Origin: a virus
Reading direction: 5' to 3' (one strand)
Length of the DNA stretch: 23,813 bases
Virus record (IMG/VR): IMGVR_UViG_3300044623_000265
Coordinates: 1-23,813 of that record
The translations under genes and the position numbers were made by a program. Positions 17,726 through 21,309 of the stretch are shown one piece after another (position 1 is the stretch's first letter; each line of letters begins with the position of its first letter). The notes under the pieces were generated by a model, which made no database searches, was not told the origin of the DNA, and worked only from the letters and a program-made list of their open reading frames with translations.

Positions 17726-17733
17726 ATATTTAT
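17726..17733 (-). promoter_or_regulatory. Late-type box AATAAATA at regA stop
   Basis: The minus-strand AATAAATA overlaps the regA TAA stop. A transcript from it would begin near 17718 and run straight into the terminator at 17649 to 17682, giving an RNA of about 70 bases. The same octamer precedes the nucleotidyltransferase gene at 9676. Confidence 0.35.
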
Positions 17734-18164
17734 TCTTCTTCGGGTTTCTTTCTTTTACCAATGTTATATTTGGTTTCAAGTTCCCATTCGTTCTTTTCTT
17801 TGTACGAAAGAACTTTAATCTGATTGAGAGGGGCAATGTCTCCACACTTTTCTGAAAACACAACACTAATCAATCCCCAATCAAGAAGAAGTTGAATAAT
17901 ACGATTACGACGTTGTACATCGTTTACCGTAATGTTAGCTCTCTTACCGTCTAGAGCAAACAGTTCTTTAAAGTGAACAATATAATACTTACCCTGTTTG
18001 TGTAGGATATGACAAGATTGGTAGAGTTTTTTCTCCTTTCTTGATGCAACTCCGATACGAGTCAGTGTTTCACGAACCTTCAAAAAATCATCTGGTTCAT
18101 TTAGTGTCACTTCAATCATTTGGTCAGGAGACCACCTGATTTCAGGTTCAACAATAGCGCTCAT
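17730..18164 (-). CDS. regA: Translational repressor RegA
   Basis: RNA-binding protein that blocks ribosome access to the starts of many early T4 messages, including the clamp and clamp loader genes upstream and its own. It has 144 residues against 122 in T4. Residues 16 onward align almost directly with T4 RegA: MIEVTLNEPDDFLKVRETLT, RIGVASRKEKKLYQSCHIL, GKYYIVHFKELFALDG, LLLDWGLISVV and YKEKNEWELETKYNIG. The start at 18164 is well supported by GGAGG six bases upstream, so the product carries a 15-residue N-terminal extension (MSAIVEPEIRWSPDQ). The internal Met that would match the T4 start lacks a ribosome-binding site. The C-terminus is a short charged tail (KRKKPEEE). It overlaps gp62 by four bases and is followed by a terminator. 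Confidence 0.95.
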   Translation of the reverse strand: MSAIVEPEIRWSPDQMIEVTLNEPDDFLKVRETLTRIGVASRKEKKLYQSCHILHKQGKYYIVHFKELFALDGKRANITVNDVQRRNRIIQLLLDWGLISVVFSEKCGDIAPLNQIKVLSYKEKNEWELETKYNIGKRKKPEEE

Positions 18165-18541
18165 TTTTTTCCTCCAGTTTCAAGTCGCTGTCTAATAGAT
18201 GAAAGTTGTTCTTGAGTCAGAATATTCAAAACTTGTTTGGCTTTCTCATTACTATAACCATAATATTGTTTAATAATGTCAAGGTCTTTAATCTGATCTT
18301 TTCGGAGCCAGGGAGAAAATCTCTTCTTTTTCCTCAGACTATTTAGTAAAAAGTCATACTGTAGTTTTTTTGACAGCCCGTGATTCTTGTTAAGTTCATT
18401 CACAAACATCACACAATCAATGTGACCAGACAGACAACGATTAATGATGTAAGGAGGATATTGTTTTTCCAGAAGAGGATCTTCATCTAGAAGATTCTCT
18501 TTGGATATATTAATTGAGTTCAACCAATCCTTGAGTTCCAT
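18161..18541 (-). CDS. 62: Clamp loader small subunit, T4 gp62-like
   Basis: Non-ATPase subunit that completes the gp44/gp62 clamp loader. It has 126 residues, clearly shorter than T4 gp62 (187), but it matches the cyanophage form I recall: LLDEDPLLEKQYPPYIINRC, GHIDCVMFVNELNKNHGL, YDFLLNSLRKKKRFSPWLRK and YYGYSNEKAKQVLNILTQEQ. The RGKRYGKWAK patch of T4 corresponds to KKKRFSPWLRK here. In T4 the gene follows gp44 directly and its translation is coupled to it, giving four gp44 per gp62. Here three genes lie between. The ATG shares a base with the stop of the 47-residue gene (TAATG), and its own stop overlaps the regA ATG by four bases. Confidence 0.88.
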   Translation of the reverse strand: MELKDWLNSINISKENLLDEDPLLEKQYPPYIINRCLSGHIDCVMFVNELNKNHGLSKKLQYDFLLNSLRKKKRFSPWLRKDQIKDLDIIKQYYGYSNEKAKQVLNILTQEQLSSIRQRLETGGKK

Positions 18542-18684
18542 TATTTAAATACCGCAGTGACACTGATAACATTTGCACCAGGATTTCTTGCAAGTGCAAC
18601 TTCCTTTGCATCCTTATAATCTCTGGCAATTACTTCTTCCTTAAAGACCGTACCAGCTTTGTAGAGAGTTACTTCACATTTCAT
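18541..18684 (-). CDS. Small conserved protein, 47 residues
   Basis: Below usual length limits but convincing. The product starts MKCEVTLYKAGTVFKEEVIA and continues RDYKDAKEVALARNPGANVI and SVTAVFK. A beta-alpha-beta plan is visible: strand (EVTLYKAG), strand (VFKEEVIA), helix (DAKEVALAR) and strand (ANVISVTAVF). The ALARNPGA motif is one I recall from small cyanophage proteins. Function unknown. The ATG overlaps the stop of the DruA-like gene by four bases (ATGA), and the stop overlaps the gp62 ATG by one, so it is translated as part of the clamp loader operon and may couple gp62 synthesis to the genes upstream. Confidence 0.8.
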   Translation of the reverse strand: MKCEVTLYKAGTVFKEEVIARDYKDAKEVALARNPGANVISVTAVFK

Positions 18685-19805
18685 CGGATAATATCAATCT
18701 CCATATCTTTACTCCAGACTTCAAGTTCAGTACGAAGAGTTCCTTCAGACTTCAGAGACTCATATCTCTTTGAAGACTTGTTCTTCCACCAAGTAATTAA
18801 GTTCTCCATATAAAACTTGTCAAAGTTGATTGGGTTTTCAATCAGTTTGTCTTCGTCACCACGAATAACTTCTCTGGAGTTAGCAAATCCGTAATCACTG
18901 AAGTAAGTTCTCTTTTGTTCTGTAAGTGATTTTGCAGTTGCAATTGCATCCTTGAACTGACTCAACTTCACATTCCCCTGCAAACTCTTGGAGATGATTG
19001 AGATCATTCTCTGTTGTGTTTTCAATTTGCGGCTGGATGCATTCTCCTTGACCAGAAGTTGATTGTTGTTCCTCTCGATAAACCATCGGTTTAGATCCTT
19101 AAAAATGTGATCGTGAAGTAGAGGAGTAAAATCACTCTGAGTCAGACCCTTGTATCGAAGATACGGTTTCAGACCATCATATTGTGAAGAAGACTTTGTG
19201 GAACCATACAGAGATGTGGTTTCAAACAAACAAATGTCTGTGTTGTACTTCTTGTTCAGTTCTAGTCTAGCTTCGTGAGAACAACAAAGCAGAGCGAGTA
19301 ATTTTCCTCCCAAGTAGTTATAACCGAAAGGTTGTGTGGGTACAATAATGAACCCCATAATCGAATGACGATTGAACCTAGACAACTCTGGAGGTTGTCC
19401 AAGCCAATCGTTACGAGGTTTTGAATTGATAGTGGGAGAACCAAATCGAATAAAACCAACGATCTTCTTGGTGTTGGTTTCTACAACAATCCACTTCAAA
19501 CTCTTACCGGGAATTGAATCTTCAATCGAGTGAGACGTTGTGATCTGCAGTCTTTCGTTGAAGTATTCATTTGTGAAGCTATAATCTTCCCCAGCGGTAT
19601 AAACCTTGAAGTTCATATCCTCTGGGCGCATATTGAATGCATCAAACATATCATCCTCTGGGCCACACCCAGGAATGTATGTTGGCATCTGTGACATTCT
19701 ATCAAGTTTTACGTTGCGAAGATATTCATCGATACGACCCATATTGGAGAAGTAATCAATGAACTGATCTGCAGCATACGTAGCATCATCAACACCTAAC
19801 ATCAT
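18681..19805 (-). CDS. DUF4338/DruA-like protein inside the clamp loader operon
   Basis: A 374-residue protein between gp44 and gp62. Residues 103 to 230 follow the DUF4338 plan known from the Druantia protein DruA and many transposon-linked proteins: LKWIVVETNTKKIVGFIRFG, then RNDWLGQPPELSRFNRH, a strand and helix SIMGFIIVPTQPFGYNYLGG, KLLALLCCSHEARLELNKKY, and NTDICLFETTSLYGSTKSS followed by YLRYKGLTQ. In the family these correspond to the GR(F/L)xIxP, NLxSxxL, RYGxxPxLxETF and GTxYxxxxW/GxT positions. The early strands also resemble GNAT or Mom-like acyltransferase folds. The C-terminal 140 residues are helical and basic (ASSRKLKTQQRMISIISKSL), perhaps for nucleic acid binding. The biochemical function of this family is not settled. 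The ATG at 19805 overlaps the preceding stop (ATGA). Homology by eye only. Confidence 0.62.
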   Translation of the reverse strand: MMLGVDDATYAADQFIDYFSNMGRIDEYLRNVKLDRMSQMPTYIPGCGPEDDMFDAFNMRPEDMNFKVYTAGEDYSFTNEYFNERLQITTSHSIEDSIPGKSLKWIVVETNTKKIVGFIRFGSPTINSKPRNDWLGQPPELSRFNRHSIMGFIIVPTQPFGYNYLGGKLLALLCCSHEARLELNKKYNTDICLFETTSLYGSTKSSSQYDGLKPYLRYKGLTQSDFTPLLHDHIFKDLNRWFIERNNNQLLVKENASSRKLKTQQRMISIISKSLQGNVKLSQFKDAIATAKSLTEQKRTYFSDYGFANSREVIRGDEDKLIENPINFDKFYMENLITWWKNKSSKRYESLKSEGTLRTELEVWSKDMEIDIIR

Positions 19806-20368
19806 ACGAAATGTTCCTCCAATGTTCCATAGTTTAACATAGTTTTAGAAGAGTATGAGTTCGGGTCTTTACCTTTACCATCAACCTGCATATTCATAAG
19901 AGGAGACTTACCAAACTTTCTTTGGTATTGATAAATCTCATAGTGTTCTCTACTAATTAACCAGGATTTAAAACAATAATCAGGATCCTCTTTTGGTGGG
20001 CAAATAAATCCAACCCACAACGGAGTGTCAGTTAGAGTTCCGTTTAGAACATCATCACCATACCCATACTTTTCAACAAAAAGTTCATACTTCTTTTCGT
20101 TACAAATACCAGTTGTCAAAGGTTTATGATGAGAAGTCATTCTTTTATGCAAATGAGTTCTCAACTTACCCTTATAACCATTTTGTTTATCATAATAAAA
20201 TCCTCCAGACTCTCCAATGTAAACACATTCTTCAAAATCAGAAGGGCAATCAGATGGTTTTGGTTTGGTTTCATTCCACACGAAACCATAAACAGCACCT
20301 CGCATTCCAACAATGTCAGCGAGTTTATGATAATCCGTAAAACGAATCCAATGAGTATAAGGAATCAT
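19802..20368 (-). CDS. GIY-YIG-like domain protein
   Basis: A 188-residue protein following gp44. Residues 22 to 155 fit a GIY-YIG nuclease layout: RGAVYGFVW (GIY position), ECVYIGESGG (YIG position) after a short insertion, KLRTHLHKRMTSHHKPL with the Arg/His-rich helix, and a distal REHYEIYQYQRKFGKSPLMN that supplies a Glu and the terminal Asn of the fold. The insertion between the two tyrosine motifs (NETKPKPSDCPSDFEE) and the long piece before the final helix are larger than in small family members. No extra DNA-binding domain is apparent. It could be a repair or restriction-type nuclease, a homing-derived enzyme, or a degenerate relative. The ATG at 20368 overlaps the gp44 stop by four bases; a GTG at 20380 is disfavoured. 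Its stop overlaps the DruA-like ATG, so the two are probably made together. Confidence 0.65.
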   Translation of the reverse strand: MIPYTHWIRFTDYHKLADIVGMRGAVYGFVWNETKPKPSDCPSDFEECVYIGESGGFYYDKQNGYKGKLRTHLHKRMTSHHKPLTTGICNEKKYELFVEKYGYGDDVLNGTLTDTPLWVGFICPPKEDPDYCFKSWLISREHYEIYQYQRKFGKSPLMNMQVDGKGKDPNSYSSKTMLNYGTLEEHFV

Positions 20369-21309
20369 TTGAATGCACACTCACACATAATTTCAGTCAA
20401 TGCAGCAAGAAGATTAATCTCTTGATCTGCTACGAACGCTGACTGGTACTGATATTTAGCCACAATAAGAACGCAAGCAGCAATACTAGGGCCGTCCAAG
20501 GTTGGATAAAGAGCATCGTAAATGTGACGCAGAAGTACAGAAGAATCGTTGTCCAAGTTATTGACACACCATTTACGTACCTCAGGAAAGTTTTTCTCTT
20601 TGAGGGCTTTAAGGAGATCATTTGTTTTTACCTCAGCAAATGCAGCAAGAATACCAGAGTCAATTTTACCACCAACAGAATATCTCTGACACTCATTCAA
20701 CACACGGCGCCAATCGGGAAAGTGTTTGTTGATCAGTTCAACAAGAACTTTTTCGTCGTATTCAATACCTTCTTGACCCAAGATGTCGCAGAGTCGTTTG
20801 AAGAATCGACTGGCAATCTTTGGTTTGTCTTTGTTTGAGATTGAGAAATCAAAGACGGCACATCGGGAGTGGAGGGGTTCGATGATTTTGTTTTTGTAGT
20901 TACAGGTAAAGATGAATCGGCAATTACGACTAAATTCCTCAATAGACGCCCGTAAGAGGAGTTGAACGTCTGGGGTTGTGTTATCTGCCTCATCAATGAT
21001 GATGACTTTGTGTTTAGCAGTTGACGAAAGCGAAACGGTCGAAGCGAAGTTCTTCGCATTGTTTCTGACAGTATCAAGGAATCTACCTTCGTCGGATCCG
21101 TTAATGACATAAAAATCTACTCCCAATTGATTACAAAGGGCTTTGGCAACCGTGGTCTTACCAATACCAGGCGGTCCAGCAAGAAGCATATTTGGAATTT
21201 CACCCTTATTTAGAAAGTCACTAAAGGTTTTCTTAATACTTTCTGGGAGAATACAATCTTCAATAGTACTAGGTCGGTACTTTTCAACAAAGAGAAACTC
21301 TTCTTTCAT
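20365..21309 (-). CDS. 44: Clamp loader ATPase large subunit, T4 gp44-like
   Basis: AAA+ subunit that opens the gp45 ring and loads it on primed DNA. It has 314 residues; T4 gp44 has 319. The N-terminus FLFVEKYRPSTIEDCILPES is diagnostic. Walker A is GPPGIGKTT at about 45 to 53, Walker B is VIIIDEAD with the DEAD at 106 to 109, and the SRC arginine finger (LHSRC) is at 148 to 150. The C-terminal collar region runs from about 180, with NKHFPDWRRVLNECQRYS. The start is ATG at 21309. GTG at 21321 would overlap the previous gene by ten bases. No strong ribosome-binding site is present, and the AT-rich start (TTTAATTATG) resembles the kind of site T4 RegA binds; this is inference. Confidence 0.95.
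   Translation of the reverse strand: MKEEFLFVEKYRPSTIEDCILPESIKKTFSDFLNKGEIPNMLLAGPPGIGKTTVAKALCNQLGVDFYVINGSDEGRFLDTVRNNAKNFASTVSLSSTAKHKVIIIDEADNTTPDVQLLLRASIEEFSRNCRFIFTCNYKNKIIEPLHSRCAVFDFSISNKDKPKIASRFFKRLCDILGQEGIEYDEKVLVELINKHFPDWRRVLNECQRYSVGGKIDSGILAAFAEVKTNDLLKALKEKNFPEVRKWCVNNLDNDSSVLLRHIYDALYPTLDGPSIAACVLIVAKYQYQSAFVADQEINLLAALTEIMCECAFK

Follow-up and report, generated by a model that had tools for sequence, protein, structure and literature searches.

The clamp-loader genes 44 and 62 of a T4-like marine phage flank a gene for a DruA-like protein, and in many relatives of this phage, the same slot holds a D12-class N6-adenine methyltransferase (Dam). We studied this phage from its IMG/VR record of 23,813 bases, and we will call this whole stretch the window. 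Our preferred reading, to which we give a probability of roughly 0.6, is that the DruA-like protein is a stand-alone DNA-modification enzyme of the phage, made with the replisome and interchangeable with Dam. DNA modification is favoured by the GNAT fold of the predicted structure, by a distant chain of profile similarities to Mom, by the alternation with the methyltransferase, and by a link to the avoidance of RGCY sites. The initial annotation of the window had listed replication, DNA modification, or anti-defence as possible roles and made no choice; our data favour DNA modification, short of proof.

A DruA family gene in the clamp-loader operon

The DruA-like open reading frame (18681-19805, minus strand) is a real gene (374 amino acids) that runs from ATG to TGA, and its coordinates and strand had been assigned correctly. 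The order on the minus strand is gene 45 (identified by comparison with phage S-SCSM2R), pyrimidine-dimer glycosylase, gene 44, a 188-aa ORF, the DruA-like gene, a 47-aa ORF, gene 62, and regA. Gene 44 (20365-21309, minus strand) encodes the large subunit of the clamp loader and is the upstream border of the slot; it matches AAA, Gp44_lid, and phrog_168, and we set its start at an ATG that is internal to the listed ORF. The downstream border is gene 62 (18161-18541, minus strand), which encodes the small subunit (Phage_clamp_A and phrog_225). The next gene in the chain is the translational repressor regA (17730-18164, minus strand; Translat_reg, E = 8e-46).

As the initial annotation had it, the DruA-like gene is embedded in a replication operon between genes 44 and 62. 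A chain of ATGA overlaps to the clamp loader had also been described. This chain exists, with ATGA at the junctions of 44 with the 188-aa ORF, of the 188-aa ORF with the DruA-like gene, of the DruA-like gene with the 47-aa ORF, and of 62 with regA. But the linkage is indirect: the 188-aa ORF (19802-20368, minus strand) and the 47-aa ORF (18541-18684, minus strand) intervene, and the junction of the 47-aa ORF with gene 62 is TAATG. At 94 of 157 other loci, the DruA-like gene shares 4 or 1 bases with gene 62 at its stop, and at 16/165 it directly follows gene 44 with a 4-base overlap. Purifying selection acts on the DruA-like gene (median dN/dS of 0.055 across 60 pairs, out of 1,276 eligible pairs), so its conservation is beyond chance.

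The window protein matches Pfam's DruA family (PF14236, formerly DUF4338) across residues 88-198, with 45.2 bits (E = 9.1e-12; the cut-off is 27 bits). This stretch spans positions 68-180 of the 297 positions in the model. DruA was the sole family in the scan, and Mom was not listed. We aligned the window protein to 34 relatives (alignment A2), and all 35 members match DruA. The two motifs that the initial annotation had relied on do align to family columns: N163, G166, G167, and K168 (in YNYLGGKLL) and T196-G201 (TTSLYG) are invariant in A2, and the conserved phage positions line up with GGKL and TTS of bacterial DruA. This bears out the original assignment to DUF4338. The window protein also matches phrog_19197 (unknown function) over its full length. 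PADLOC gave a match to DruA at 1.7e-5, and PADLOC and NCBIfam contributed little beyond that.

A profile built from A2 matched a set of eight large DruA proteins, taken from plasmids and from genome records, at 99.94% (E = 2e-36, 242 columns, residues 80-350). Two of the eight (L370 and L371) are doubtful, as it was the phage profile that first led to their records, and they may be phage genes. With these two rows removed, the remaining six proteins still matched at 99.5% (E = 3e-23, 232 columns, residues 80-343), and three plasmid DruA proteins alone matched at 99.3% (E = 8e-21, residues 58-347). Since residues 80-343 or 350 align to bacterial DruA, the C-terminal part is not foreign to the family. 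The protein had been described as a captured domain, with about 100 N-terminal and 140 C-terminal residues outside of it. About the first 57-79 residues do lack a match to DruA, but most of the C-terminal 140 residues align, so foreign flanks are not a correct description of most of the C-terminus.

In viral contigs, we confirmed 383 relatives among 387 pattern matches, and we retrieved 80 (one selection step retained only ORFs above 330 amino acids). Relatives were also present in 31 phage records: 25 from Synechococcus phages, 3 from Pelagibacter phages, 2 from marine phages, and 1 from a cyanophage. DruA was found in 4/36 genomes of one genome set and, at E up to 0.001, in 11 of 150 sampled genomes (10 of them above the cut-off); these counts have no bearing on Druantia in the hosts of the phages.

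Phage DruA-like proteins have been reported before, via Phold, in six Synechococcus phages, with S-PRM1 (NC_055761) as the example (TM-score 0.73; PMC12774648). The S-PRM1 protein and the window protein share 65.9% identity. The available excerpts of that report describe structural similarity only and are silent on the 44-62 slot, on alternation with the methyltransferase, and on RGCY. Thus, as far as those excerpts go, the proteins are already published and the operon logic is new here. Among the open-licence papers that our searches listed, we found no report of the slot alternation or of RGCY in cyanophages.

The window protein and DruA of the Druantia anti-phage system belong to the same family and have the GGKL and TTS motifs in common, but unlike Druantia's DruA, the window gene sits in a phage replication operon. 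In Druantia, DruA is accompanied by the helicase DruE. We searched for MZB (PF09369), which we take to be a marker of YprA/DruE-type helicases, and it was absent from all 14 carrier genomes (a control was found in 8 of the 14). As judged by this marker, the DruA-like genes of these 14 genomes do not appear to be part of Druantia systems. We found no tested function for DruA in the portions of the literature available to us.

The AlphaFold2 model of the window protein (pLDDT 86.5, pTM 0.81) clearly has a predicted GNAT fold. With VIA-align, Mom of phage Mu (8bv8) ranked first among solved chains (Z of 9.6, 185 residues, rmsd 4.2). The 50 entries listed had Z of 8.7-9.6, and nearly all of them are acetyl- or acyltransferases. 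Because Mom's Z ties with those of other GNATs (the 49 others are within one Z unit), a specific kinship of the model to Mom is only suggested. Foldseek against PDB matched GNATs weakly (best E = 8e-3), including tRNA-acetylating toxins. DUF4338 is also called a GNAT domain in an excerpt of PMC10853773.

Mom (PF25680) carries out N6-adenine modification of phage DNA, and DNA modification is the role that we propose for the window protein, which is longer than Mom. The two can be joined through a chain of profiles: from phage proteins to DruA (99.94%), from DruA to small transposon-type DUF4338 proteins (97.6%, or 96.2% for the large DruA proteins with the two doubtful rows removed), and from small DUF4338 to Mom (95.7%, E = 1e-8). 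But direct comparisons with hhalign gave no match (4% for the phage proteins against Mom and 0.3% for large DruA against Mom). So, of the comparison with GNAT and Mom models that the initial annotation had proposed, the GNAT fold was borne out, Mom ranked first with a Z tied with those of others, and the direct profile comparison found nothing. By eye, the window protein has QxxG in the beta4-alpha3 loop, a motif that is not conserved in bacterial DruA, and the phage proteins have Gly at the site of Mom's Ser124 (this alignment is unsure). A sequence search of solved structures with profile A1 gave no match. The sole match of a single-sequence search of solved structures was DnaA (E = 0.04), which we took as chance.

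Occupants of the 44-62 slot

In annotated genomes with a DruA-like gene ("carriers"), the order is mostly 44, DruA-like gene, 62, with or without small ORFs on either side of the DruA-like gene; HTVC008M, Mosig, and S-B68 are exceptions. Phage S-RIM8 lacks the DruA-like gene and has 44, a D12-class N6-adenine methyltransferase, and 62, in the same order and with overlapping genes. The D12 methyltransferase is unrelated to the DruA-like protein in fold and chemistry; it performs SAM-dependent methylation. Among phage records, we found gp44 in 535, the methyltransferase in 421, and the DruA-like gene in 31. The methyltransferase adjoins clamp-loader genes in the 60 listed records of the 421.

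The initial annotation had suggested a survey of this slot in T4-like phages, and the survey revealed the alternation. We sampled loci by similarity to gp44 (the product of gene 44). DruA-like queries had led us to most of the DruA-like loci in our collection. Only the gp44-seeded samples are therefore blind to the content of the slot, and each of these spans gp44 types near its query. In the sample seeded by the window's gp44 (80 loci), 55 slots were complete: 36 had the methyltransferase, 14 had the DruA-like gene, 4 had other ORFs, 1 was empty, and none had both enzymes. In the sample seeded by S-RIM8's gp44 (80 loci), all 58 complete slots had the methyltransferase. A later sample yielded 66 new loci; excluding 14 whose gp44 was already in use and 24 whose slot was incomplete left 28, of which 21 had the methyltransferase, 7 had a DruA-like gene of the window protein's subfamily (which we named druW; druS is a shorter subfamily), and none had both. 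Across 561 collected loci, with some contigs counted twice, none had both enzymes in one slot. Exclusion within the slot is partly automatic, as the slot is a single position.

The two enzymes also tend to be found in different genomes. Just 1 of 16 named carriers (S-SCSM2R) encodes a D12 methyltransferase, far from the slot, so that both enzymes are present in that genome. None of 12 long carrier contigs had a D12 methyltransferase above the cut-off; one match fell just short of it, and its frame contains a stop. Conversely, none of 11 methyltransferase records contained DruA, though our control was silent in them too (the same model did match in carriers). The methyltransferase is also absent from HTVC008M, S-B68, and Mosig, whose DruA-like genes are outside of the slot. 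At HTVC008M-type loci, the gene is between 43 and uvsX, and in S-B68 it is near gene 47.

The slot has been exchanged repeatedly. On a tree of gp44 (152 of 231 distinct sequences, thinned at 93% within each label, with L358 left out), the label switches between DruA-like and methyltransferase at least 21 times, and at least 8 of these switches are forced by starred branches. The labels are nevertheless clustered on the tree (0/500 shuffles were as low), so the loci depend on one another, which P values do not take into account. In one close pair, L303 and L488, gene 44 is 97.7% identical (965 bases) and the sequence that starts at gene 62 is 92.3% identical (2966 bases), yet one has a druS gene and the other has the methyltransferase.

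The slot houses other ORFs as well, including PurS, GIY-YIG-like, endonuclease VII-like, and 2OG-Fe oxygenase ORFs. In L547, which has neither enzyme, there is a 303-aa ORF that looks glycosyltransferase-like by eye, along with small ORFs. Pelagibacter phage HTVC008M has two DruA-like paralogs (L083, 6001-7125, and L368, 3974-5116): one is between 43 and uvsX, and the other is near a recombination endonuclease gene. Relatives of this second paralog (the Mosig clade) are often beside gene 46 and 2OG-Fe oxygenases.

The 188-aa ORF of the window had no match above cut-off in a Pfam scan. By eye, it contains GAVYG...VYIGESG...KR...E...N (alignment A3), a pattern that we take to be GIY-YIG-like. 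This reading rests on the motifs because the ORF's structural model was too poor for a structure search (pLDDT 50.8). In complete slots, relatives of this ORF are beside the DruA-like gene 22 times and beside the methyltransferase 3 times, with some contigs counted twice; those beside the methyltransferase, in L348-L350, are 44-45% identical. The ORF may encode a nuclease, either of the homing type or acting as a partner.

Avoidance of RGCY sites

In a first comparison of palindromic tetramers across slot types, GGCC and AGCT stood out. In a scan of 136 tetramers, the top ones were CCGG, AGCC, AGCT, and GGCC in isolates and GGCC, AGCT, and AGCC in contigs, with CGCG among them. These top tetramers suggested RGCY as the motif; both this motif and the split into druW and druS were chosen after inspecting the data. 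For individual loci and pairs, we required more than 8 expected RGCY sites.

RGCY is avoided less in genomes with druW. In two parts of the tree, the observed/expected ratios (O/E) were 0.76 and 0.78 for druW, 0.31 and 0.27 for druS, and 0.34 and 0.32 for the methyltransferase. Among nearest pairs, druW exceeded the methyltransferase in 16/16 and druS in 13/15. There was no such relief for druS, which exceeded the methyltransferase in 3 of 11 nearest pairs, so druS would mark something else or meet another nuclease. If all DruA-like types are pooled, the difference from the methyltransferase in nearest pairs is not significant (15/23, P = 0.21), and across the three closest swap pairs it is inconsistent.

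In isolates (40 kb per genome), median O/E was 0.76 for druW (n = 7, 0.44-1.24), 0.33 for druS (n = 4), and 0.17 for the methyltransferase (n = 5, 0.09-0.57). The difference of druW from the methyltransferase had P = 0.010 and that from druS had P = 0.024, but the ranges overlap: two druW phages are at 0.44 and 0.46, and the methyltransferase reaches 0.57. In loci that we had not used previously, there was no overlap between druW (0.59-0.83, n = 6) and the methyltransferase (0.15-0.58, n = 20), with one-sided P = 4e-6 if relatedness is ignored; one druW locus and one methyltransferase locus of the 28 were below the limit on expected sites. The window itself has 114 RGCY sites, with 116 expected.

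The weaker avoidance is not confined to RGCY, as YGCR is also less avoided with druW (O/E of 0.88 against 0.67-0.68 for the others and, in the later sample, 0.84 against 0.70 for the methyltransferase). Methyltransferase carriers avoid GGCC (O/E of 0.19 and 0.27); because GGCC contains no adenine, an adenine methylase could not mark it.

We also considered GATC as the mark, but it is flat across slot types (O/E of 0.74-0.82). Methylophilales phage Melnitz-3 has a Mom homolog and almost no GATC (3 sites against 129 expected in 40 kb), and S-RIM8 has 18 sites against 162 expected, despite its own methyltransferase. (The loci behind these GATC observations are L395 and L398; L585 and L605; and L578 and L598.)

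Possible roles and distant relatives

Under our preferred reading, the protein would be an enzyme that falls in the DruA branch within the GNAT acyltransferase superfamily, and it would perform an acyl-type transfer. Because the gene belongs to the same translational chain as the clamp loader, the enzyme would be present while phage DNA is copied. It would mark the replicating DNA and thereby block cutting by nucleases. It occupies the same slot as the Dam-type methyltransferase of many relatives and would probably share its protective role, despite a different chemistry. A DNA-protecting role equivalent to Dam's fits the position, the exclusion, the exchange, and the composition link, and the slot alternation suggests that DruA-family proteins chemically mark DNA. 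The druW enzyme may itself be what shields RGCY.

The alternation could also arise if 44-62 were a general hotspot for recombination, with both enzymes as unrelated passengers and the DruA-like protein doing something other than modifying DNA. The variety of ORFs in the slot fits this idea, and 4 of the 55 blind slots had other ORFs and neither enzyme. We consider it unlikely, as exactly one of the two enzymes was present in 50 of those 55 slots, the exclusion extends to whole records (with one exception among the records searched), and carriers with the gene elsewhere still lack the methyltransferase. Purifying selection on the DruA-like gene counts against it as well. That selection and the conserved motifs also argue against a decoy that mimics the host's DruA and poisons Druantia complexes, which would account for the profile-level kinship with DruA but does not predict exchange with a methyltransferase; we find this very improbable. 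Alternatively, a GNAT acyltransferase could act on a protein, a tRNA, or a nucleotide and tune replication or host metabolism. GNATs that act on proteins, polyamines, or antibiotics fit the fold about as well as Mom does, and tRNA-acetylating toxins are among the Foldseek matches. But this predicts neither the alternation nor the RGCY association, and we think it quite unlikely.

A different possibility concerns RGCY alone and is compatible with a DNA-modification role: avoidance might track the host, with druW phages infecting hosts that lack an RGCY-cutting nuclease and the enzyme having a separate function. Slot type and host may correlate, and RGCY is avoided by druS phages, which nonetheless have a relative of the enzyme. 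Against this, among phages with WH8102 as the recorded host, RGCY O/E is 0.46 and 0.66 with druW and 0.09 and 0.28 with the methyltransferase, and on WH7803 it is 0.76 and 1.24 with druW and 0.21 with druS; these are few phages, and some are related. S-SCSM2R, which has both enzymes, has WH7803 as its host and is at 0.64. The host explanation is worth keeping in mind, but we regard it as doubtful.

Returning to the marking of DNA by the DruA-like enzyme, a broader form of this proposal is that DruA-family enzymes install a so far unknown mark that shields RGCY; that phages exchange this enzyme with Dam at a single epigenetic locus of the clamp-loader operon, so that their marks track the nucleases of the hosts; and that, by extension, Druantia's DruA marks DNA as well. 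We offer this broader form only tentatively, and we would not bet on it. Because the gene is in isolated and sequenced cyanophages and alternates with Dam, the idea that DruA marks DNA is a direct and testable hypothesis. If it is true, widespread marine viruses would have an identified locus at which DNA marks are swapped, and there would be a reason why some of these viruses avoid RGCY less.

A few relatives are in unexpected places or have unexpected names. A 5.2 Mb record titled as a Thermoplasmata archaeon MAG (CP070751.1; L359) encodes a relative that is 51% identical over residues 114-374, and this copy is perhaps a misbinned stretch of phage DNA. Giant-virus proteins from Faunusvirus, Yasminevirus, and Dasosvirus (A0A3G4ZXG3, A0A5K0UAJ3, and A0A3G4ZRA1 in BFVD) match most of the window protein's model; the best match has E = 9e-16, with 20% identity. 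Judging by these structural matches, it is possible that giant viruses have DruA-like proteins. Among orthologs in deposited phage genomes, SSCSM2R_152 (PQ898602) is named "methylcarbamoylase mom", which is also the name of the solved Mom chain, and SCREM1_203 (OP535465) is named "iron-binding protein".
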